Assembly: GCA_029785825.1 (NCBI GenBank)
Contig: JAFLYY010000001.1
Coordinates: 1,333,374 to 1,397,373 of the forward strand
DNA length: 64,000 nt
Origin: Nitrososphaerota archaeon
GTDB taxonomy: Archaea; Thermoproteota; Nitrososphaeria; Nitrososphaerales; Gagatemarchaeaceae
Reading direction: 5' to 3'
Shown here: positions 11,537-48,765 of the stretch, in pieces
Layout: each line of letters opens with the position of its first letter
Numbering within the stretch: the stretch's first letter is position 1
Made by a program: the position numbers and the translations under genes
Notes under the pieces: model-generated
The model's input: the letters and a program-made list of their open reading frames with translations, nothing else
The model's database searches: none
Told to the model about the DNA's origin: nothing

Positions 11537-12532
11537 ATGCCTGACGACGTTTATGACATCACCATAATCGGCGCGGGTCCCAGCGGCCTCTTCGCGACAT
11601 TCTATGCCGGACTGCGGCAGATGAAGACCAAGCTGATCGACGCGCTCGAAGAGCCGGGAGGCCAGGTGGCGGTCTTGTACCCAGAGAAGTACGTCTTCGA
11701 CGCGCCTGGCTTCGCAAAGGTGCTCGCGAAAGACCTCGTGAAGAACCTAGTGGAGCAGGCCTTCCAGTACAATCCGACCGTGGTCCTTGGAGAGAGGGTG
11801 ATGACCCTGCGCAGGGACAACGGACTGATCGAGCTCGGAACGGACAAAGGGACGACCCACGTTTCGAAGGCGGTCCTGATCGCGGCAGGCGTCGGAGCAT
11901 TCTCCCCCAACAGGCTTGACGCCCAGGGCGCCTCGGACTACGAAGGGAAGGGAGTGTACTACTTCGTCAAAGACAAGAGCGCCTTCAGCGGGAAGAGGCT
12001 CCTTGTCGTTGGCGGTGGGAATTCGGCCGTGGACTGGGCGCTGAACATACAGGGGATCGCCAAGAAGATCACGCTGGTCCACAGGAGGGACGTGTTCAGG
12101 GCCCATGAGGGGAGCGTTTCCGAGCTTATGAAGTCGGGGTGCGACGTACGGCTCTTCCACGAGGTCAAGAGCGTAGAGGGAGACGGGTCGAAGGTCACTC
12201 AGGCGGTCATATTCGACAACCGGACGAAGGCAGAGGAGACGATCGACGTCGACGCGATACTGGTCAACATAGGGTTCCGGGCGGACCTGGGGCCCATCAA
12301 GGACTGGGGGCTGCAGATAGATGGGAGAGAGATCAGTGCGAACGGGAAGATGGAAACGAGCATCCCTGGGGTGTTCGTCTCAGGAGACATAGCGGGACCT
12401 CTGGACGGCGTGAAGCTCAACCTTATCGCGACCGGGTTCGCCCAGGCGGCCACGGCGGTGAACGTCGCAAAGGCGTACACCGACCCTACCTCTAAGATAT
12501 TCCCAGGCCACAGCAGCGAGATGAAAGGGTAG
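11537..12532 (+). CDS. Ferredoxin/flavodoxin-NADP+ reductase, thioredoxin-reductase-like type
   Basis: 331 residues with two Rossmann motifs: IIGAGPSGLFATFYAGLRQ (FAD) and VVGGGNSAVDWAL (NADPH). A GVFVSGDIAG motif near the C-terminus completes the FAD site. The redox CxxC of true thioredoxin reductases is absent (VVGGGNSAVDWALNI carries no cysteines), which places it with the TrxR-like FNR group. It may exchange electrons with the ferredoxin encoded at 56 kb; that link is inference. The stop is 1 nt from the convergent L15e stop. Confidence 0.85.
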   Translation: MPDDVYDITIIGAGPSGLFATFYAGLRQMKTKLIDALEEPGGQVAVLYPEKYVFDAPGFAKVLAKDLVKNLVEQAFQYNPTVVLGERVMTLRRDNGLIELGTDKGTTHVSKAVLIAAGVGAFSPNRLDAQGASDYEGKGVYYFVKDKSAFSGKRLLVVGGGNSAVDWALNIQGIAKKITLVHRRDVFRAHEGSVSELMKSGCDVRLFHEVKSVEGDGSKVTQAVIFDNRTKAEETIDVDAILVNIGFRADLGPIKDWGLQIDGREISANGKMETSIPGVFVSGDIAGPLDGVKLNLIATGFAQAATAVNVAKAYTDPTSKIFPGHSSEMKG

Positions 12533-12533
12533 C

Positions 12534-12995
12534 CTAGTCCAGGATCCCGAGCACGCGCTTGTAGTTGTAGTCGGCCCTGATGGCCGGGTGCTCCGGGTCG
12601 ATCAGCACGCACTCATACCAGGCATGCATCCCGTCCTTCCACACCGGGTAGGAGCCCAAGACCTTCATGTTCGGATGCCTCTCCTGCACCCTCCTCTCGG
12701 CGACCTGCTGGGACGAGACCGCCGATTTTATCTTGAGGACCCCCATGTGCTTGGGTCTCCTCCCTGACGTGGGGCGCTGCTTCCTCATCCCGCCCCGCGA
12801 GACCCTCATCCTCACCACGATCACCCCTTCCTTCGCCTTGTAGCCCAGAGCCCTCGCCCGGTCGAGCCTCCAAGGGCGGTCCACCCTTAGGAGGGCGGGC
12901 TGCTTCCTCAACTCGACGGCCCTGGACCTCATGTCCCCTCCCTTCTCGTGGAGCACCTGCTGCCAGGTCTTGGAGATCCGAGCGTAGACGGGCAT
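12534..12995 (-). CDS. rpl15e: 50S ribosomal protein L15e
   Basis: 153 residues with the L15e pattern: RISKTWQQVLHEKGG, PWRLDRARALGYKAKEGV, VRVSRGGMRKQRPTSGRRPK-like basic block, and the C-terminal WYECVLIDPEHPAIRAD. It is a large-subunit protein found in archaea and eukaryotes. Single gene, no obvious operon partner; it faces FNR tail to tail. Confidence 0.97.
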   Translation of the reverse strand: MPVYARISKTWQQVLHEKGGDMRSRAVELRKQPALLRVDRPWRLDRARALGYKAKEGVIVVRMRVSRGGMRKQRPTSGRRPKHMGVLKIKSAVSSQQVAERRVQERHPNMKVLGSYPVWKDGMHAWYECVLIDPEHPAIRADYNYKRVLGILD

Positions 12996-37788: not shown

Positions 37789-38118
37789 ATGATTGGAAGC
37801 ATAACCGACTGGGGCATCCTTGCCGTCGTGGTCATCGTTCTCTTCGGGGGCGCGAAGAAGATCCCTGAACTGGCGCGCTCCATGGGCAGAGCGATGGGCG
37901 AATTCAGGAAGGGACAGGCCGAGCTGGAGAAGGAAGTGGCAGAGCTGCGGACCTCGACCGACTTTACAGGTGCGGTCAAAAGCACGCCCCAGCAGCCGGT
38001 GAAGGAAGTAGCTCCACAGGCGCACCAGCCAATCAACGAAGACAGAGAGTACTCGCGCAGGCGCATATCGCAGCTCGAGGAAGAGCTGAAAGAGCTCAAA
38101 GAGAAGGCCGGCGCGTAG
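37789..38118 (+). CDS. tatA: Sec-independent translocase subunit TatA
   Basis: 109 residues: one N-terminal membrane segment (WGILAVVVIVLFGGAKKIPE), the FGGAKKIPELARSMG hinge and amphipathic helix, then a charged coiled tail. TatA forms the pore-like assembly that exports folded proteins with twin-arginine signals. It is followed 61 nt later by tatC. At least one clear Tat substrate, the molybdenum hydroxylase Fe-S subunit, is encoded 10 kb away. Confidence 0.93.
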   Translation: MIGSITDWGILAVVVIVLFGGAKKIPELARSMGRAMGEFRKGQAELEKEVAELRTSTDFTGAVKSTPQQPVKEVAPQAHQPINEDREYSRRRISQLEEELKELKEKAGA

Positions 38119-38179: not shown

Positions 38180-39004
38180 ATGAGCTTGTCAGCCGCTAAG
38201 CCTGAGTCAGACCGGAGGGAATTACCGTTCCTCGAACACATAGCCGAGCTGATTCGCAGGTTCCTCATCTCGCTCGCCTCCTTCTTCGTGTTCTTCGTTC
38301 TCTTCTTCATTTGCAAGCCGGTATGGGTCAGGCTTGGGTCGGTCACGGTATTCTATCCGTTTCCAGACCTGTTTCATAGTTTCACCACAGAGTTCTTCAA
38401 CTTCGCGAAGCAGCAGCTCCTCCCTCCGCACATGCTTCTGATCAACCTGAACGCGTTCGATACATTCGTAGCGATCCTTTACACGGCGATGGCGCTGGCC
38501 GCGATCTCCTCATCACCCGTCTGGATCTATGAAACGGCGTCCTTCATCGGACCGGCGCTCAAGCCCAGGGAAAAGAGGACGCTACAGTTGATTCTGATCC
38601 CTGCAACCGGCCTCTTTCTGGCCGGCGGCTTGTTTGCCTACAAGATTGTTTTGCCCGTCATCTTCAAGTTCCTGTATCTGTTCACGCTGTCTACCGGGGT
38701 CGAACCCACCCTGGGCGTAGGGACGTTCGTCTCGACGGTGATAGCATACATAGTCGCGCTGGGCCTGTCTTTCGAGATTCCCATAGTCATGATCGCCGTC
38801 AGCTACGTGGGACTTGTCTCCTACGAGACATGGTTGAAGAACTGGAGGTATGCCATCGTCGGCTCTTTCGTCTTAGCGTTGCTCATCTCACCCGGTGCGA
38901 CAGGAGGCATCATAGAGGTCACGACCGGGCTAACGCTTTCGGGCTTGTTCTTCGGCGGGGGCCTGGTGTCCAGGGCGCTGGTTCTGCGGAGACGGAAGCA
39001 GTAG
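38180..39004 (+). CDS. tatC: Sec-independent translocase subunit TatC
   Basis: 274 residues with six predicted membrane spans and the TatC signature: LPFLEHIAELIRRFLISLAS at the N-terminus (the conserved E/R recognition region), AISSSPVWIYETASFIGPAL and FEIPIVMIAVSYVGLV. TatC is the receptor for twin-arginine signals. A hairpin with a T-rich tail follows the stop. Confidence 0.94.
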   Translation: MSLSAAKPESDRRELPFLEHIAELIRRFLISLASFFVFFVLFFICKPVWVRLGSVTVFYPFPDLFHSFTTEFFNFAKQQLLPPHMLLINLNAFDTFVAILYTAMALAAISSSPVWIYETASFIGPALKPREKRTLQLILIPATGLFLAGGLFAYKIVLPVIFKFLYLFTLSTGVEPTLGVGTFVSTVIAYIVALGLSFEIPIVMIAVSYVGLVSYETWLKNWRYAIVGSFVLALLISPGATGGIIEVTTGLTLSGLFFGGGLVSRALVLRRRKQ

Positions 39005-40000: not shown

Positions 40001-40366
40001 TTGAAACAGTTCGAGTTTGCGCGGGTGGTGGCCGGCCTGGTCGAGAAGGGGCAGCCCTTCGCGGTGGCGACCGTGGTTAAGACCGCGGGGTCCTCGTTGG
40101 GGAAGCCCGGTTTCAAGACAGTCATCTCGAAGGACGGCGACGTCCTCTACGGGTCTCTGGGAGGCGCGTGCCCCGAGTCGGCCCTGGCTGCGACCGCGAA
40201 GCAGACTCTCGCGAGCGGCCACCCGAAGACGGTGACCGTGTTCCTAGAGGACACAGAGAGGTCGGTGGCAAGTGCGTTCCGCGTAAAGGGCGAGGATGAG
40301 ATACACGTGGAGACCAACTGCGGCGGGGAGATGCAGGTTTACGTGGAACCGTATCTTCCGAAGTAG
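40001..40366 (+). CDS. XdhC/CoxI-type molybdenum-enzyme maturation domain protein
   Basis: 121 residues containing FAVATVVKTAGSSLGKPGFK and SLGGACPESALAATA, matching the N-terminal XdhC/CoxI domain; the usual Rossmann domain is missing. XdhC proteins hold and sulfurate the molybdenum cofactor for xanthine-dehydrogenase-type enzymes. The nearby molybdenum hydroxylase operon and moa genes give it an obvious client. The start is TTG. Confidence 0.78.
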   Translation: MKQFEFARVVAGLVEKGQPFAVATVVKTAGSSLGKPGFKTVISKDGDVLYGSLGGACPESALAATAKQTLASGHPKTVTVFLEDTERSVASAFRVKGEDEIHVETNCGGEMQVYVEPYLPK

Positions 40367-40400: not shown

Positions 40401-40832
40401 TCATTTCTTGATTGGGACGCCTTCTACCCAGCGACCCTTCCCTCTGATCCGTTCCCTCTTCCAGAGCGGCAGTGTCGTCTTTATTCTGTCGATAGCGTAC
40501 CTGCACGCTTCGAACGCGTCGGCCCGGTGCTCTGAGGAGACCGCGACGACGACGCTCGCCTCGCCGACCCTTAGGAAACCCTCCCTGTGTATCATGGTGA
40601 GCTGCTTCACCGGCCACTTCGTCCTGGCCTCGGCCTCGATCTGCTTGAGTCTTTTTTCCGCCATCTTCGAATAGGCCTCATACTCCATGGCGTCCACATC
40701 GCCCGCCTTGCTCTTCATCCGGACAGTCCCTATGAATACGACTGTGCCTCCGGCGCCCCTGTCGGCGACCTCGGCCATCACTCCTGCGGGGCTGATCCTC
40801 CGCCTGGCGATTCTCGTAACTGAGCGCGCCAG
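40401..40832 (-). CDS. moaE: Molybdopterin synthase catalytic subunit MoaE (start uncertain)
   Basis: Converts cyclic pyranopterin monophosphate to molybdopterin with sulfur from MoaD. GAGGTVVFIGTVRMKSKAGD, MEYEAYSKMAEKRL, HREGFLRVGEASVVVAV and the catalytic-lysine PLWKRERIR region are all present. The conserved N-terminal strand (SVTRIARRRISPAGVMAEV) lies upstream of the first GTG/ATG (40776-40781), so initiation must be at a rare codon; a CTG at 40830-40832, just after the MoaD stop and a GGAGG, gives full length (143 residues). Confidence 0.87.
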   Translation of the reverse strand: MARSVTRIARRRISPAGVMAEVADRGAGGTVVFIGTVRMKSKAGDVDAMEYEAYSKMAEKRLKQIEAEARTKWPVKQLTMIHREGFLRVGEASVVVAVSSEHRADAFEACRYAIDRIKTTLPLWKRERIRGKGRWVEGVPIKK

Positions 40833-40930: not shown

Positions 40931-41944
40931 CTAGCCTCCCACGGCGTTCATGTTCCTCGGCTTCTCCCATCCGCCTTTGATCCACGGCATGTGCCCCACG
41001 CCTTCCGGCTTTTTGCTCACGACGCCTTTCATGAACCTGGCGAGCTCCGCGTCCGACCCTCCTCTAAGGAAGGGTTTGAGGTCGTAGTACTGCGTGTCGA
41101 AGAGGCAGGAGAGCAGCATCCCATCTGAAGTCAGCCTGATTCTGTCGCAGTCGTCGCAGAACGGGTCGCTCATAGGCGTTATCAGTCCGAGCCTCCCTCG
41201 GTCGCTGCCGATGGACCAGAGTGAGGCGGTCTTCCCCATCTCCCTGCCCATGGGTCTGAGGTCATAGGAGCTTTTCAGGGCCGCTATGATGTCCTTCCCC
41301 GCCATGACGGCGTCGGGGGACCAGACTCCCAGCCCGTCCAATGGCATAAACTCGATGAACCTTATCGACAGCCCCCTGGAGTGCGCATAGTCGACCAGGT
41401 CGACGATCTCGTCGTCGTTGTAGCCCCTGAGAGCCACTGAGTTGACCTTGACAGGATCCAGTCCGACCCGGAGCGCCTCCTCGATGCCCTCCAAGACCCG
41501 CGGGAGGGCGTCCACGCCGGAGATCTTGCTGAACCTGTCCCTCTTCAGGCTGTGGAGGCTTACCGTCACCCCCTGCAGGCCCGAGTCCTTGAGCAGGTGG
41601 GCCCTCTGCTTAAGGAACCAGCCATTGGTAGTCATGTCGAGGGTGTCGACCCCATCGATGCGGGAGAGCCTGGCAACGAGGGCCTCCAGATTCCGCCTCA
41701 AGAGCGGCTCCCCACCAGTTATCCTGATGCCGTCTATCCCCAGCCCCGACAGCATGCGCGCGGTCTTTTCGACTTCGTCGAACGTCAGTTGGTCGGCTTC
41801 GGGCAACCACTTCACCTTGCTCTTGTCGGGCATGCAGAAGAGGCAGGCGAAGTTACACCTGTCAGTCACGGAGATCCTGAGCTTCTTAGCAACTCTGCCT
41901 TTGCTGTCGACAAGTCGGTCAGCCGCAGGCACTACAAGGGTCAA
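40931..41944 (-). CDS. moaA: GTP 3',8-cyclase MoaA
   Basis: Radical-SAM enzyme starting molybdenum cofactor synthesis. 337 residues. CNFACLFCMPDKSK is the SAM cluster, CDDCDRIRLTSDGMLLSC the C-terminal second cluster, and GITGGEPLLR-like RITGGEPLLRRN the SAM-binding GGE. The protein ends MNAVGG, the functional GlyGly tail. The start is TTG at 41942-41944. It heads a moaA-(moaD)-moaE run. Confidence 0.95.
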   Translation of the reverse strand: MTLVVPAADRLVDSKGRVAKKLRISVTDRCNFACLFCMPDKSKVKWLPEADQLTFDEVEKTARMLSGLGIDGIRITGGEPLLRRNLEALVARLSRIDGVDTLDMTTNGWFLKQRAHLLKDSGLQGVTVSLHSLKRDRFSKISGVDALPRVLEGIEEALRVGLDPVKVNSVALRGYNDDEIVDLVDYAHSRGLSIRFIEFMPLDGLGVWSPDAVMAGKDIIAALKSSYDLRPMGREMGKTASLWSIGSDRGRLGLITPMSDPFCDDCDRIRLTSDGMLLSCLFDTQYYDLKPFLRGGSDAELARFMKGVVSKKPEGVGHMPWIKGGWEKPRNMNAVGG

Positions 41945-42133: not shown

Positions 42134-42904
42134 CTACTTTATGCTGTAGTCCGGTCTGATTCTCAGATATAGCATCCCGTAGAACAGGGAAATCAGCACC
42201 GCTGCAGTAGGACCGTGGAGGGACCGCAGAAGGGCCTCGAACCCATAGGAGTTTAGACCTAACAAACCGAACGGACCGATGGGTGAAATCGACCCGAGGA
42301 GGTATAGGCCCAATACTCCCTGGAATATCACCACAGCGGCCAACACCCAGTACAGGACTTTTGCCTCCAGGAACCTAGCGCTGAACAGCCATTGCTTCAG
42401 GGTCAGCCTCTTCGTCGCGATCCTCGCAACCTCGAGGACGACGATGCCTATCCCGGTTGCAATCAGGAGCGTCGCGAACAAGGAGTGGAGGTTGAGTGCG
42501 AACGGAAGTGTCGCACCAGTCAGGAGCTTCATAGGCGTGAAAATCTCGGGTGAGGCAATCATCGTGCCGGTGAGGTACGAGCCGCCTACTTCCAAGAGGA
42601 ACGCTATCTTCAGAGCCATCTCCAGGCCTATGGTCTTGGTTATTTTGACCGGCTCTGTCGAGGCGCGCCTCGGCACGAAGAACCTAGTCACGTAGTGGAT
42701 CGCCATCAGAATCACAGCAATCAGGTATATGTCAGCTTCAAAGGAGAACGGATACCTGTAGACTGCCGTTTCGAACGAGGTCGCAGGGAGGACAATCCCT
42801 TCGTAGAATACACCCAGGGCGAGGATAAAGAGTCCAGAAACCGTCAGTCTTGTTTTCATCCAGCGCATTTGTACGGCGGTCTGAACGGCACCAGAGGTGT
42901 TCAT
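42134..42904 (-). CDS. Polytopic membrane protein, possible b-type cytochrome
   Basis: 256 residues with about six hydrophobic segments (roughly 19-41, 57-78, 95-117, 130-160, 182-206, 222-247). Histidines at 70, 140 and 230 fall within or at the ends of membrane segments, as in haem-binding membrane proteins, but there is no defining cytochrome motif. Glu105 and Glu159 are also buried. It lies between moaA and the retropepsin-like genes and has its own TATA box. An electron acceptor for the molybdenum hydroxylase is one possibility, by inference only. Confidence 0.6.
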   Translation of the reverse strand: MNTSGAVQTAVQMRWMKTRLTVSGLFILALGVFYEGIVLPATSFETAVYRYPFSFEADIYLIAVILMAIHYVTRFFVPRRASTEPVKITKTIGLEMALKIAFLLEVGGSYLTGTMIASPEIFTPMKLLTGATLPFALNLHSLFATLLIATGIGIVVLEVARIATKRLTLKQWLFSARFLEAKVLYWVLAAVVIFQGVLGLYLLGSISPIGPFGLLGLNSYGFEALLRSLHGPTAAVLISLFYGMLYLRIRPDYSIK

Positions 42905-43139: not shown

Positions 43140-43571
43140 CTAGGAGATAGAAAGCATCTTCGACTTCCCGTCGTAGGTCACTTTGAACTTGTCGAGGAAT
43201 GACCTTCCGAGGACCATGTCGTATGGCAACAACAAGGACGGCTCCATCTCCAGTGAGACCGCTGTCACATCCTCAACCGCAAGGTGGCCGATCGAAACCC
43301 GCTTCAGCCTGACCATGATACCACGTTCCACTCCTCTGAAGGACATCAAGTAGGGCGCCTTTTGGGGGAAGACCTCCCTCCACTCCCTGGCTCTGTTGGC
43401 GACGTCAGAATACCCCAAGAACACAGCGTCGTTGGCGAACATCAGGCAGTGGGTGGAGTTGAAGTCTACCAGGGCAGAAAGTTCTCTTGTGCGGCCGCCT
43501 GTCCCGGCAACGCGACACATGACCAGCATCGGATCCTTGACCTGGAATGTCAGCTTCTTGCTGCCGAACAC
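43140..43571 (-). CDS. Retropepsin-fold protein with altered active-site motif (DFN)
   Basis: 143 residues. ELSALVDFNSTHCLMF stands where aspartic proteases of clan AA have ALVDTGA: the Asp (36) is kept but Thr-Gly is Phe-Asn. Further on, DMVLGRSFLDKFKVTYDG matches the second conserved block (ILGxxFLxxFxVxxD). So the fold is supported but catalysis is doubtful. The GTG start directly follows the stop of a paralogous upstream gene, so they form an operon. Confidence 0.65.
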   Translation of the reverse strand: MFGSKKLTFQVKDPMLVMCRVAGTGGRTRELSALVDFNSTHCLMFANDAVFLGYSDVANRAREWREVFPQKAPYLMSFRGVERGIMVRLKRVSIGHLAVEDVTAVSLEMEPSLLLPYDMVLGRSFLDKFKVTYDGKSKMLSIS

Positions 43572-43982
43572 TCAGCTCACCTTCGTTAGCCGCAGCAGTC
43601 TGTGATCCCAGTCGAGACTGACTACGGCGTGCTTCAGTAGGCTCTGACCGATAACCGCTTCAAACCCGATCTCCTGGGGGAGGTCTATTGCCGCGAATTC
43701 CACCCTTTCAAAAGAAAGGCCGCCTATCTCCACCGCCTCAACCTCGAAAATGACCGTCTTGCTGAAGCCTCCTGCCGTCATCAGGGTCCGTGCGTTAGGG
43801 GGGCCGACCGTCTCGTGCTGGAACGCCACCTCTGGATGGCCGAAGATGTACGCGTCCCCCTTGGGGACGATACAGTACTCATACACCGGGTCCACAAGTG
43901 CTCTGTACTCCCGGGCCTTGGAGTTGGACCCCTTCACCCTGACGAAAAGGGAAGGGAACCTTCCCAACTCGAATTCCGTCAA
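43572..43982 (-). CDS. Paralogous retropepsin-fold protein (DPV motif)
   Basis: 136 residues, related to the next gene in the operon. YRALVDPVYEYCIVPKGDA replaces the DTG triad with Asp-Pro-Val; EAVIGQSLLKHAVVSLDWDH is the conserved C-terminal block of retropepsin-like domains. A tandem pair could assemble as a heterodimer, since retropepsins dimerise to build one active site from two Asp. Overlaps the preceding small gene by 4 bp. Confidence 0.65.
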   Translation of the reverse strand: MTEFELGRFPSLFVRVKGSNSKAREYRALVDPVYEYCIVPKGDAYIFGHPEVAFQHETVGPPNARTLMTAGGFSKTVIFEVEAVEIGGLSFERVEFAAIDLPQEIGFEAVIGQSLLKHAVVSLDWDHRLLRLTKVS

Positions 43983-44224
43983 AGGAGCATCGGATAAGGC
44001 GCTTCACCGGTGTAGAATATGCAGATGTCGGGGTACTTCATCAAGCCGGATCTGAGTCTGAATCTGTCTACGTCCTGACCCACCACCTTTCCCTTGGAAG
44101 GTTGGGAGTTGGCGTCCCGGGCGGTGACCAGAATAGCCACCCAGCGGTTCTTGTACTTCCCGGTAATCTGGTCGAGGGTGAGGTCCTCTGGCTCATTTCC
44201 ACCCTGAGGCTGACCCGCACTCAA
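43979..44224 (-). CDS. Small protein, DUF5678-like, first gene of the retropepsin-fold operon
   Basis: 81 residues: DQITGKYKNRWVAILVTARD, then GKVVGQDVDRFR and YPDICIFYTGE. The pattern (KYxxxWVAI, G.VV, late PDxxIxYxGE) resembles DUF5678 proteins, which often neighbour clan AA protease-like genes in prokaryotes. No activity known. The 4-bp stop/start overlap with the next gene indicates coupled translation. Spacer 44225-44351 to the molybdenum hydroxylase operon holds no feature I can support. Confidence 0.5.
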   Translation of the reverse strand: MSAGQPQGGNEPEDLTLDQITGKYKNRWVAILVTARDANSQPSKGKVVGQDVDRFRLRSGLMKYPDICIFYTGEAPYPMLL

Positions 44225-44351: not shown

Positions 44352-45365
44352 CTAGCTCAGCAGCGTCAGCGCCTTACTCACGGCGCCCTGGGCTAGGAAC
44401 ACCCTGAAGGAGTTACCTGTGCCAGTCGTGAGCGGGGTCGCCCCTTCGACCGCCTTCGCGGCTGCCTCTTGAATCGTGCCGGTCGTAAGGCTCTGCCCGA
44501 CGAGGAATGACTCCGCGGCCGTCGCCCTATGTGGCGCGACGTCGACCCCTCCCAACACCAAGCTGGCGTGGGAGATGGTGCCGCCACTGATGGTGAGCAC
44601 AGCCGCTGCGCTAGCGAGTGCGAAGTCGAAGGACTGCCTTGCGCGCACCTTGTACCAAGAACTCACGGAGTTCGCAGGAAGCACTGGGACATGAATCTCT
44701 GTAATCATCTCGTTGTGCTGGAGTGAGTTCTCCTTTACCTTCCCCCCTACTATGGCTACTCCTGGGAGGAGCTGGCTGATTGGCATGTTGGTGGTCCCGT
44801 TCGGGCCTTGCACGGTGACGTCCGCATTCAGCGCGAAGTATGCTACTGGCGTGTCGCCAGGGTTGACTGCAAATGTCAGCCTACCGCCGAAGATGGACTG
44901 ATAATATCTGTTGTCGCCCAGGACGCCGTAGCAGACGTTGCCGCCATTTTGCCAGCAGGGATAGTTGTTTCTCAGGTACCAACACCAAGTGTCTTGGATG
45001 ATGTCGCCGGCGGCTGTTGCTTGGTTGCGAATCTGGGGGGCGGCCACGGTGGCCGCGGCCTGACTCAAAACCGCGTAATACTGCGCTATGTTCGGGTCGG
45101 AAGCGATGGCTGAGACGGGCGTGGTGGCACCGATTCTGAGCCCATCGGTGGCATCATATTTTATGTAATTGAGAGGGAGGCTTGAGATGTCGATCACATA
45201 TTTCGGGGTCTTGTATGTCACACCATTTTTCATCGAGTAGAGGAGATCCGTGCCGCCCGACACAATCCTAGCTTGGTCGCCATACTGTGTCAGGAAGGAG
45301 ACCGCCTCCGCAGGCGTGCTCGCCGTGAGCAGGCCGAATTTTGGTACTTCGTTGTTGCTACTCAA
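44352..45365 (-). CDS. Molybdenum hydroxylase FAD subunit
   Basis: 337 residues. RIVSGGTDLLYSMKNGV and GLRIGATTPVSAIAS are FAD-binding loops, QIRNQATAAGDIIQDTWCWY the second FAD segment, and the C-terminal half is a CO-dehydrogenase flavoprotein C domain. An inserted loop with three Cys (WCWYLRNNYPCWQNGGNVCY) resembles the loop of YagS/hydroxybenzoyl-CoA-reductase-type subunits, where an extra Fe-S cluster can sit; whether a cluster forms here is open. It is third in the operon, after the Fe-S and molybdenum subunits. Confidence 0.9.
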   Translation of the reverse strand: MSSNNEVPKFGLLTASTPAEAVSFLTQYGDQARIVSGGTDLLYSMKNGVTYKTPKYVIDISSLPLNYIKYDATDGLRIGATTPVSAIASDPNIAQYYAVLSQAAATVAAPQIRNQATAAGDIIQDTWCWYLRNNYPCWQNGGNVCYGVLGDNRYYQSIFGGRLTFAVNPGDTPVAYFALNADVTVQGPNGTTNMPISQLLPGVAIVGGKVKENSLQHNEMITEIHVPVLPANSVSSWYKVRARQSFDFALASAAAVLTISGGTISHASLVLGGVDVAPHRATAAESFLVGQSLTTGTIQEAAAKAVEGATPLTTGTGNSFRVFLAQGAVSKALTLLS

Positions 45366-45376
45366 TTTCTCACCCT

Positions 45377-47806
45377 CTATGATGTCGTGCTCGACGTCGT
45401 GCCCGATGCGCCGTTGGGGTTGCTATTCATCCATTGTATCGCCTCTACCACGTCCTCGATGCGGACAGGGGTCTTGTGGAACCTGTACCCGCCCAAGGCG
45501 TTGCTGAGGGCATTGATGAAGGAGATGTCAGCCGCGATGATGCAGTTCTCGCCTATCCCTGTTGCGCCGAATGGGCCCGTGGGGTCGATGTTCTCCACGG
45601 GGATTACGTTCGCCGAATCGGGATTCTCGTATATCGTGGGTATCTGGTAGTCATGGTAGTTCGGGTTGAGCCAGCTCCCTGAAGTGGGATAACCCGGCTT
45701 CACAGTAACGTTCTGGCTGGGGTCGTTCAGCAGCTCTTCGAAGAAGGCCGAGCCGATTCCCATCACCGAGCCGCCCATCATCTGGTGTATGGCGCCCTTG
45801 TAGAAGATGGTCCTGCCTAGGCCCAGAGCGAAGGTGTGACTGATGACATGAACCACCGCGGTCTCGGTGTCCACCTCTACCTGGGCGAACCTAGCTCCGG
45901 TTGACCTGTAGGCTACGTTGAATGGGATCTGCCATACCCCGAACCCCTTGATTGAGCTCGTGAGTAGAGCCGCGGCGTCTTTGAAGGAGATGCTGTTCGT
46001 TGGGTTCGTGGTGTCATAGATTGTGTCGTTTCCGAAGGCGAGGTTGTTTGCGTTTGCATTCAACTGGCTCGCCACTATTGGGAACCACTGGTTCTTGAGA
46101 TCCTCTACGGCATAGAGCAGAGAGTGGGAGTTGTGCGTGGACTGGCTTCCTGCTGTCACGCTGGCGTTGGTCGTGTACTTCGTGTCTGACTGAATCAGCT
46201 TGACATTGTCCATCGAGGTGAGACCGAGCGCCTCTGATGCGATGAGGGGGAAGGTTGTGTTGCCGCCGGCGCCGTGGTCGGTGAGGCCGATGTATACGGT
46301 GACTGTCCCATCGGGGTCGACCTGCACCTGCGACGTGGATGGAGGGAAGGGAGAACCCTTGGAGGCATTCTGGATGCACATCCCTACTCCGACCCTCTTG
46401 GTGCCGTTGACGGAGCTGGGGACGCCCCACCCTTTCCACAGGTTGCTCCAACCGAACGCTTGCATTGCTTCCTGGAGCGCCTGCGGTTGTGCTATGGTGG
46501 TATATGGCAGGTTAGCAAAGGGCTCGACTGCGTTCGGAGCCTGCCTCATGTTCTTGAGCCTGAACTGGGCGGGATCCATGTTGAGCTTGTGCGCCAGCTC
46601 GTCGATGGCGGACTCCATCAGGAAGTGGCCTTGCTCTTCACCGACGCTCCTCATTGCCGCCCCGTTCGAGTAAGCGTCTGTGGTCACTGGGATGCTGTAA
46701 AAGCGCATGTTTGGACAGTTGTATGCGTTGTAGAAGTCGCCGACCGCGTCTGCTCCCTGGGCACCGCCGCGTCCTCCGACGTTGGCTGTGTACACTCCGT
46801 CGATGGCTACCAAGGTACCATCGTTCATCGCGCCCAGCCTGAACGTAGCCGACAACGGCCACCTGTTCGTGGTAGTGCGCGCGTGCGTGAGCCTGGTGTG
46901 GACGAATTTCACCGGGGCGCCAATCTTCTGCGCAAGTACGGCAGCCAGGACGTATTCCTCTCCGGAGGACTTGTTCCCAAGGCCGTTGCCCAAGGCACCG
47001 CCGTCCTCATAGCCACCCAGTGAAGTGCTGACCCTCACGTCTGTAGCTGGGATTGCGAAGTACCCCGCCAGCAGCTGCTGGACGGCCCACGCGAACTGGG
47101 TGGAGGCGTTGACAGTCAACTGTCCCCCTGTCCAGTAGGCTACCGCTCCTCTAGGAAAGATCTCGAAGTGCTGTTGTATCGAGGTGTTGAATGTGTCTTC
47201 GTAAACGACGTCGGCGTTTGCAAGCGCAGTGTCTACGTCACCCAGATTCAAGGTGAGCGTCCCCGACGTCACCGCCCCGTTTTCGCCTACGCCACCACCG
47301 GGGACGTTACCGCCCGGCCAAAGCTGCGGAGCTGTTGCCTGAAGCGCATCTTGGGCGTCGAAGACGTATGGGAGTTGTTCGTACTCTACCTGAATCAGGT
47401 TCAGGGCGTCCACCACCTCGTTCGCGGTGGGGGCAGCCACTACCGCCACGGGCTGGCCAGGGTACAGCACCTCGCTGCTGACCAGCGGCGGATAGGCTCT
47501 GGCCCCAGCGCCAAACAGGGCACCGACCGGAAGATCAGACTCCACGAGAGTCACATATCCAGCAGCTTGAGCCGCGCTGACGTCTATGCTCGTCACCTTG
47601 GCATGAGGATGCGGCGCGACGAGGAAACCAGCGTACCACATGGTACTTTGTCCTATGTCGCTAGGACCTATGTCGAGGGTGTACTTCCTCTGACCAGTCA
47701 CCTTCGCGTATATGTCGCGTCGAGTGACCGCCTGGTTGCCCACCAGATTGAATTTGGCGTTAGGGTCCAGGTTGTTCAGGCCGCTGCTCTGGGGTTTGCT
47801 ACTCAT
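45377..47806 (-). CDS. Molybdenum hydroxylase large (Moco-binding) subunit
   Basis: 809 residues of the xanthine dehydrogenase/aldehyde oxidoreductase family. An N-terminal ald_xan domain (VTRRDIYAKVTGQRKYTLDI, GQPVAVVAAPTANEVVDA) is followed by the cofactor-binding domains with GGYEDGGALGNG, TDHGAGGNTTFP, and the catalytic glutamate in GATGIGENCII near the C-terminus. It lacks a signal peptide of its own, so it would ride out with the Tat-signal partner. Substrate (aldehyde, purine, N-heterocycle or CO-like) cannot be told; the AYRSTGARF-type coxL signature is not the classic form I CO dehydrogenase motif. The sequence is Asn/Thr/Gln-rich compared with cytosolic neighbours, which fits an exported enzyme. 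Confidence 0.92.
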   Translation of the reverse strand: MSSKPQSSGLNNLDPNAKFNLVGNQAVTRRDIYAKVTGQRKYTLDIGPSDIGQSTMWYAGFLVAPHPHAKVTSIDVSAAQAAGYVTLVESDLPVGALFGAGARAYPPLVSSEVLYPGQPVAVVAAPTANEVVDALNLIQVEYEQLPYVFDAQDALQATAPQLWPGGNVPGGGVGENGAVTSGTLTLNLGDVDTALANADVVYEDTFNTSIQQHFEIFPRGAVAYWTGGQLTVNASTQFAWAVQQLLAGYFAIPATDVRVSTSLGGYEDGGALGNGLGNKSSGEEYVLAAVLAQKIGAPVKFVHTRLTHARTTTNRWPLSATFRLGAMNDGTLVAIDGVYTANVGGRGGAQGADAVGDFYNAYNCPNMRFYSIPVTTDAYSNGAAMRSVGEEQGHFLMESAIDELAHKLNMDPAQFRLKNMRQAPNAVEPFANLPYTTIAQPQALQEAMQAFGWSNLWKGWGVPSSVNGTKRVGVGMCIQNASKGSPFPPSTSQVQVDPDGTVTVYIGLTDHGAGGNTTFPLIASEALGLTSMDNVKLIQSDTKYTTNASVTAGSQSTHNSHSLLYAVEDLKNQWFPIVASQLNANANNLAFGNDTIYDTTNPTNSISFKDAAALLTSSIKGFGVWQIPFNVAYRSTGARFAQVEVDTETAVVHVISHTFALGLGRTIFYKGAIHQMMGGSVMGIGSAFFEELLNDPSQNVTVKPGYPTSGSWLNPNYHDYQIPTIYENPDSANVIPVENIDPTGPFGATGIGENCIIAADISFINALSNALGGYRFHKTPVRIEDVVEAIQWMNSNPNGASGTTSSTTS

Positions 47807-48519
47807 TACGCGCTACCTCCCTGAAGATTCTGCGCCGCCAGTTGGATGCTGGCGATGATTCCGTCGTAGTTTCCGCACCTGCAGATGTTCCCGCTCATCG
47901 CAGTCTTGATCTCGTCCAAGGTGGGGTTCGGATTGCTCAACAGGAGGGCAGTCGCAGACATAATCTGTCCCGGTTGGCAACCGCTGCATTGCCCGCCGTC
48001 TTCCTGTACCCAAGCCAACTGCAGAGCGTTGAGGACTCTACTTTCAGCGCTCGCAGGAATGTTGTACCCCTCGACCGTGACGATTGAGTGTCCAGCCGCA
48101 CGATATGCAGGGTATGTGCACGACATATAGGGAACGCCATCAATCAAGACGGTGCACCCCCCGCATTCTCCTCTGTTGCAGGGCCGCTTGGTGCCTATCA
48201 GACCAAGGTCATCCCGAAGCACATTGTTCAACATGTCTCTTGGCTCCACGCCCACGTCGTAGTTCTTTCCGTTTATGTTCAGCGTAACAGGCTGAGAAGC
48301 AAATGGGTCAGAATTTGACGTCGCAGGGACGTTCTCAGTTGGAGTCTGGACCACGGTAGTGCTGTTACCCGTGCTCAGGGCGATTCCGCCTAAGCCAATC
48401 ACCCCGGCGGAGATTGTGCTCGCCTTCAGAAATGTTCTCCTATTCATCTTCGAGTCCAACGGTGTGGACTCGGACTCTTCGCTGTGGGACTGCTTTGTTG
48501 TAGAATCCTCACTTCCCAT
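47806..48519 (-). CDS. Molybdenum hydroxylase 2Fe-2S subunit with Tat signal
   Basis: 237 residues. A hydrophilic lead of about 24 residues is followed by NRRTFLKASTISAGVIGLGG (26-45), a textbook twin-arginine signal. The mature part has the plant-type cluster (C114, C119, C122, C134) and the second helical cluster (C178, C181, C213, C215). The enzyme is therefore expected outside the membrane, exported folded with its partner by the Tat system encoded 10 kb away. ATG at 48517-48519; a TATA box lies about 25-30 nt upstream. The operon order is Fe-S, Mo, FAD. Confidence 0.93.
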   Translation of the reverse strand: MGSEDSTTKQSHSEESESTPLDSKMNRRTFLKASTISAGVIGLGGIALSTGNSTTVVQTPTENVPATSNSDPFASQPVTLNINGKNYDVGVEPRDMLNNVLRDDLGLIGTKRPCNRGECGGCTVLIDGVPYMSCTYPAYRAAGHSIVTVEGYNIPASAESRVLNALQLAWVQEDGGQCSGCQPGQIMSATALLLSNPNPTLDEIKTAMSGNICRCGNYDGIIASIQLAAQNLQGGSA

Positions 48520-48541
48520 GCCTAACGGATGAGGGTGGGTG

Positions 48542-48551
48542 GGTATAAAGC
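48542..48551 (-). promoter_or_regulatory. TATA box for the molybdenum hydroxylase operon
   Basis: Minus-strand GCTTTATACC about 23-32 nt before the Fe-S subunit ATG. The 305-bp spacer 48520-48824 otherwise contains a G-U-tolerant hairpin near 48630-48655 and the divergent psmB promoter, but no gene I can support. Confidence 0.6.
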
Positions 48552-48765
48552 ATTTGTTTCTGCACCGGGTTACCTTAACAAAAACGGGAAATCTCGGCAG
48601 TCGCGTGTCTCGCAAAAAGATGACACCCGTTGCGTGGTCCCCACGGAACCATGCGCAAAGTCGAAGGACGCGCACGATGCCTGGAGTGCCCGGCTGCACT
48701 GCTCGAGAGAGAACTGGTTGACTCGATGATGTTTCGCGCCAAGTAAACAAAGCCTCGGTTGGAAA

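Follow-up and report, generated by a model that had tools for sequence, protein, structure and literature searches.

Results

The locus at 43140-44224 of the window (the whole 64,000-nucleotide stretch of DNA that was analysed, from a genome of 1.97 Mb) contains three consecutive genes on the minus strand, and all three open reading frames reported there by a first-pass annotation were confirmed. The first gene of this triad encodes a small DUF5678-like protein, P81 (43979-44224, TTG start), and the other two encode degenerate retropepsins, A (P136; 43572-43982, TTG start), in which DTG is replaced by DPV, and B (P143; 43140-43571, GTG start), in which it is replaced by D-x-N (DFN). The start of A overlaps the stop of P81 by 4 nt and the GTG start of B abuts the TGA of A, which agrees with the translational coupling proposed earlier. 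The A-B junction was abutting or overlapping in 8 of 11 copies examined, the remaining three having a gap of 3 to 15 nt, and the frames and junctions of the triad were conserved between copies. The within-genus dN/dS was about 0.03-0.22 for P81, A and B where it could be estimated, so that all three are under purifying selection and are not decaying genes. Fusion of A and B by programmed read-through was ruled out, since the stop codon of A is TGA, TAA or TAG across genomes and the spacing ranges from -4 to +15 nt. A phage origin was unsupported by comparison with PHROGs. The PADLOC models of anti-phage defence gave weak PDC-M08B matches for A (E 0.0099) and for a retropepsin of genome G040 (E 5e-4).

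The gene maps placed the triad directly after CoxM, at the end of a molybdenum-hydroxylase operon with the order CoxS-CoxL-CoxM, which ruled out a free-standing cassette; the coupling first described for the "three-gene cassette" held. This host operon, as well as the tracking of one enzyme branch by the triad, had been overlooked. On the same strand, the operon encodes a 2Fe-2S subunit of the CoxS type bearing a twin-arginine (Tat) signal (47806-48750, start codon uncertain), a molybdenum subunit of the CoxL type, from the xanthine dehydrogenase family (45377-47806), and a CoxM-type FAD subunit (44352-45365), whose best NCBIfam match, 4-hydroxybenzoyl-CoA reductase beta, was below the model cut-off. 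The three subunits carry MoCoBD_1/2 and Ald_Xan_dh_C, FAD_binding_5 and CO_deh_flav_C, and Fer2_2 and Fer2-type domains; the Fer2-type matches were just under the cut-off and the remaining ones above it. Judged by this domain content, the host enzyme is assigned to the xanthine-dehydrogenase-family molybdenum hydroxylases. Downstream of the triad are genes for a 256-aa protein, hydrophobic by eye (42134-42904, minus strand), the molybdenum cofactor synthesis proteins MoaA (40931-41944, minus) and MoaE (40401-40781, minus), an XdhC/CoxI N-terminal domain of the known molybdenum-hydroxylase chaperone type (40001-40366, plus), TatC (38180-39004, plus) and TatA/E (37789-38118, plus). The 256-aa protein, encoded by the gene adjoining the triad, is kept within the genus and has a relative near the cassette of genome G055, with no Pfam or NCBIfam match.

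The distribution of the triad was surveyed in MAG assemblies, sampled densely in one archaeal order. Among 400 genomes of this order, the A/B profile matched 26, including 12 with 14 tandem copies, 3 variants (G035, G048 and G040) and 11 weak matches in families f8 and f10 (E 5e-6 to 7e-4). The 14 copies were spread over four genera and two families, although near-identical ones are included (G004/G017/G085, and G174 with the second copy of G009), and this recurrence in 12/400 genomes bears out the view that the arrangement is more than chance. P81, A and B were found together in every copy, and the order CoxS-CoxL-CoxM-P81-A-B was kept in 14/14 as far as the contigs reach. Over the wider phylum, the A/B profile matched 7/398 genomes, among which only that of the window had the tandem pair; a scan of genome contigs with B gave seven loci, six of them cassettes and one a short planctomycete match of 27 residues. 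One contig of genome G140 (L059) carries two complete CoxSLM-P81-A-B operons about 9 kb apart.

The presence of the triad followed the type of CoxL. In the 400 genomes of the order, 14 CoxL proteins were at least 46% identical to that of the window and all of them were accompanied by P81-A-B, while the next CoxL was at most 33% identical. When the flanks of 49 CoxL loci were searched with the P81 or A/B profile, matches were obtained at 14/14 cassette loci and 0/35 others, the latter with flanks of only about 1.5 kb, beyond which a farther module would escape. In the CoxL tree of 46 rows, the 14 copies were represented by 12 cassette rows that formed one clade (SH-aLRT 100), and its sister was the CoxL of G035 and G048 (support 98). 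The cassette CoxM proteins also formed one clade with support of 100.

A twin-arginine motif, scored by motif and by eye, was present in 13/13 cassette CoxS proteins and in 2/22 other CoxS; one copy was without CoxS owing to a contig end. The two Tat-bearing CoxS outside the cassettes belong to G035, which has a single-retropepsin pair nearby, and to locus L146, with no module in its flanks. P81-A-B is best explained as a module accessory to a single branch of molybdenum hydroxylases, one whose members bear a Tat signal. In this setting the three proteins might be stable extra subunits which hitchhike on the Tat signal of CoxS, with the beta-barrels serving as a scaffold, an anchor or a docking site for an electron partner. 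The strict position after CoxM, the tight spacing, the 14/14 co-occurrence with the enzyme and the lack by eye of signal sequences in A, B and P81 fit such a role, and a precedent is given by the three-subunit PaoABC of Escherichia coli, from the same superfamily, which is exported by hitchhiking on the Tat signal of PaoA (PMC4273604). However, relatives in the wider enzyme branch do without the module, as at the two loci of genome G034 (L144 and L154) with no retropepsin in the flanks, and we regard additional subunits as rather doubtful.

The retropepsin nature of A and B was examined by profiles and by predicted structure. Pfam matches were below gathering for both proteins (PF13650 for A, E 1.5e-4; PF13975 for B, E 8e-4). 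In profile-profile comparison with 17 archaeal retropepsins with D-[TS]-G, a set partly chosen by that motif, the joint A/B alignment reached 97.6% with a score of 73.3 (best of 100 column-shuffled controls, 15.5), and the A rows alone and the B rows alone reached 90.8% and 96.9%. Identity between the A proteins and the B of the window is 23-29%. When A and B were tethered via one residue and modelled with AlphaFold2, the pLDDT was 71 and the pTM 0.47, the relative placement being of low confidence. In VIA-align comparisons, lobe A of this model matched APRc of Rickettsia (5c9f) with Z 12.7 (2.7 Å over 118 residues) and HIV protease (8dch) with Z 10.8; these two enzymes are active homodimers with DTG, a motif that A and B lack. 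The model thus supports a single-lobe pepsin fold for A, and the profile comparison assigns B to the same fold; a search by sequence for a close relative of B among solved structures found none. The retropepsin fold claimed in the first-pass annotation is supported by these matches, as is the C-terminal ILGxxFL-like block, a hydrophobic-hydrophobic-Gly element read as AVIGQSLL in A and MVLGRSFL in B, whose Gly was invariant in all 26 rows of alignment A2. The proposed heterodimer fared differently in its two parts: pairing is plausible, because the three genes are coupled and occur jointly in every copy, whereas the geometry was not established by the tethered model, which as a whole did not superpose on the tethered dimers of HIV protease (a TM of about 0.28 by query and an rmsd of about 16 Å).

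The catalytic motif was lost from both paralogues, as had been noted. The motif regions in the window read ALVDPVYEYC in A and ALVDFNSTHC in B, and D-[TS]-G occurred in 0/22 A/B proteins of alignment A2 (11 A and 11 B) against 17/17 retropepsins of the comparison set, whose selection was based in part on that motif. Only 2 of these 22 A/B proteins retained the motif Gly, and all 11 B proteins had Asn at this position. The earlier statement that the single Asp is kept applies to B, in which Asp and Asn of D-x-N were both invariant (11/11), and to the A of the window; across A proteins the position held Asp in 7/11, Asn in 3/11 and Val in 1/11. The usual catalytic Asp pair is thus absent or not required. 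The A proteins (support 94/90) and the B proteins (99/99) were each monophyletic in the tree, which argues for a single duplication before the spread of the triad. Close homologues with intact DTG were sought in both clades and none was found, so the loss is old, and a recent loss was ruled out.

The invariance of Asp and Asn in B would also suit an unusual active protease, in which B gives the sole catalytic Asp, partnered by the Asn of D-x-N or by another group, and a precursor of CoxS, CoxL or CoxM or the Tat signal region is trimmed. Histo-aspartic protease (3fns), a one-Asp enzyme, was among the fold matches. This activity nevertheless appears unlikely, given the Asn or Val that some A proteins carry at the Asp position and the Asn that replaces the motif Gly in every B protein.

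P81 had no Pfam match at E<=10, so the gathering score of DUF5678 (PF18929) was not reached, and its best-scoring relative gave E 0.099 (12.9 bits against 23.2 for gathering). In spite of this, the DUF5678-like character first assigned to it was recovered by profile-profile comparison of the P81 family with DUF5678 (94.4%, score 43.4; 100 shuffles at most 13.1, reversed profile 10.3), which indicates that the two are related at the level of sequence profiles. The family differs from DUF5678 by a conserved insert around RDxNxQPxxG. The predicted structure was confident in its mid-part (pLDDT about 90), and a PDB fold search with it gave no match with E below 1. In 201 genomes of the order, the P81 profile had 17 matches in 15 genomes, and by coordinates all 17 adjoin an A/B-type retropepsin.

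Related pairs are ordinary in the phylum. At 19/30 DUF5678 loci from 200 phylum genomes, the DUF5678 gene was immediately followed, in the same orientation, by a gene for a retropepsin with D-[TS]-G, indicating that the ancestral type of module is a common one. These Thermoproteota pairs of DUF5678 (PF18929) and a TIGR03698/TIGR02281-like, Asp_protease_2 retropepsin have the same gene order as the triad, some with a 4-nt overlap, and both partners are profile-similar to P81 and A/B; however, they keep D-[TS]-G and one retropepsin, while the triad has two, both degenerate and tied to a molybdenum hydroxylase. As such pairs are widespread and could land anywhere, the triad might be a chance neighbour or a decaying selfish module, but the contrast between 14/14 and 0/35 loci, the single enzyme clade and the purifying selection on both degenerate genes disfavour this strongly, and we consider it very improbable.

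Longer N-terminal parts were observed in the DUF5678 proteins of L092, L094, L101, L102, L103, L104 and L108, mostly followed by a DTG retropepsin. Some of them matched DNA-binding or antitoxin-like families weakly, AbiEi_4/MarR in L101 and L103 and a FitA-like RHH in L102; such long proteins are perhaps protease-controlled regulators. Since DUF5678 is joined elsewhere in the phylum to these weakly matching DNA-binding domains, the pair type can be regulatory, and P81-A-B could have arisen from DUF5678-retropepsin pairs to act as a sensor or regulator, binding a ligand or a repressor instead of the enzyme. We find this quite unlikely, because no DNA-binding domain was detected in P81 by Pfam and the triad associates with an enzyme clade and not with a promoter or regulator.

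Variants with other retropepsin arrangements were found near related enzymes. In G035 and G048, one P81-like gene and one retropepsin with DPA lie about 10 kb from CoxL on the opposite strand. In G040, a P81-like gene comes after CoxM; next in the row are a retropepsin with intact DSG, one further gene and a second retropepsin, this one with ATG. In the CoxM tree this genome groups with G035 and G048 (support 90). These arrangements are compatible with one ancestral module in the enzyme branch that was later doubled and degraded, without proving it. The two G040 retropepsins (L064:11182-11577 and 12402-12800) stand in one gene row, the ATG protein being a close copy of the DSG one, and this pair is possibly an intermediate toward a one-sided pair; a search for plasmid relatives of the DSG protein found none. 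At the G035 and G048 loci (L158, L066, L159 and L065), CoxSLM, with the Tat signal in G035, is followed by genes that by eye resemble those for both subunits, small and large, of a NiFe hydrogenase and for sulfur-transport proteins, and the single DUF5678-like/DPA-retropepsin pair sits at the far end of the gene row.

Discussion

Our work revealed a double, asymmetric degeneration of a retropepsin pair and its tie to one molybdenum-hydroxylase branch with a Tat-signal small subunit, and both are new. Neither a function for this gene combination, for which the first-pass annotation knew of none, nor an association of DUF5678 and retropepsins with molybdenum enzymes was described in the titles or abstracts of the papers found by searches of open-licence literature. 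Because the P81-A-B set tracks one enzyme branch, an old protease fold now probably helps to build or escort an exported molybdenum enzyme in some acid-loving archaea.

The reading we favour, with a probability of roughly 0.35, is that P81-A-B is an assembly or export-proofreading factor for the molybdenum hydroxylase that acts via a pseudo-protease heterodimer. A and B would pair in the cytoplasm, with P81 as their dedicated partner, and the old substrate groove would hold rather than cut a segment of CoxS, CoxL or CoxM. The client would be held during the loading of the FAD, Fe-S and molybdenum cofactors and released once the complex was ready for Tat export. Against such an assembly factor, a Tat signal is also carried by the module-free CoxS of L146, and the invariant D-x-N may mean that B has kept some chemical function, which speaks against a pure chaperone. 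More broadly, it is possible, and put forward here only tentatively, that A-B with a DUF5678-like partner represents a new class of dedicated assembly or Tat-proofreading factors for molybdenum hydroxylases, the groove having switched from cutting to holding, by way of an ancestral single pair that still exists near related enzymes in G040 (DSG) and G035/G048 (DPA).

Two known systems offer partial parallels. XdhC-family chaperones are encoded alongside their enzymes (PMC2997495), and a dedicated chaperone for PaoABC is a suggestion of the authors of the PaoABC study (PMC4273604). Like the triad, XdhC, CoxI and PaoD are encoded with the enzyme and have a proposed role in its maturation; they belong to a different family, the action described for XdhC is on the molybdenum cofactor, and no XdhC_CoxI domain was detected by Pfam in P81, A or B. 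P81-A-B would supplement XdhC-type chaperones and not replace them, as an XdhC-domain gene also lies nearby. In a study of RimABK, the operon-encoded, retropepsin-like RimB works with the co-encoded enzyme RimK and, in addition to its protease activity, stimulates it (PMC11957791). Unlike A and B, RimB still has DTG; it is proteolytically active, its partner RimA is a phosphodiesterase and not a DUF5678 protein, and the enzyme served is a different one.

These results give the DUF5678-retropepsin pair type a functional context. The triad would be an unusual case of a prokaryotic retropepsin fold kept by selection despite loss of the protease motif, and an unrecognised step may exist in the assembly of Tat-exported molybdenum hydroxylases. 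As a minor observation on the enzyme itself, an insert region of CoxM has four Cys in the other cassette operons and three in the genus of the window, in which a presumed extra Fe-S cluster may be altered.
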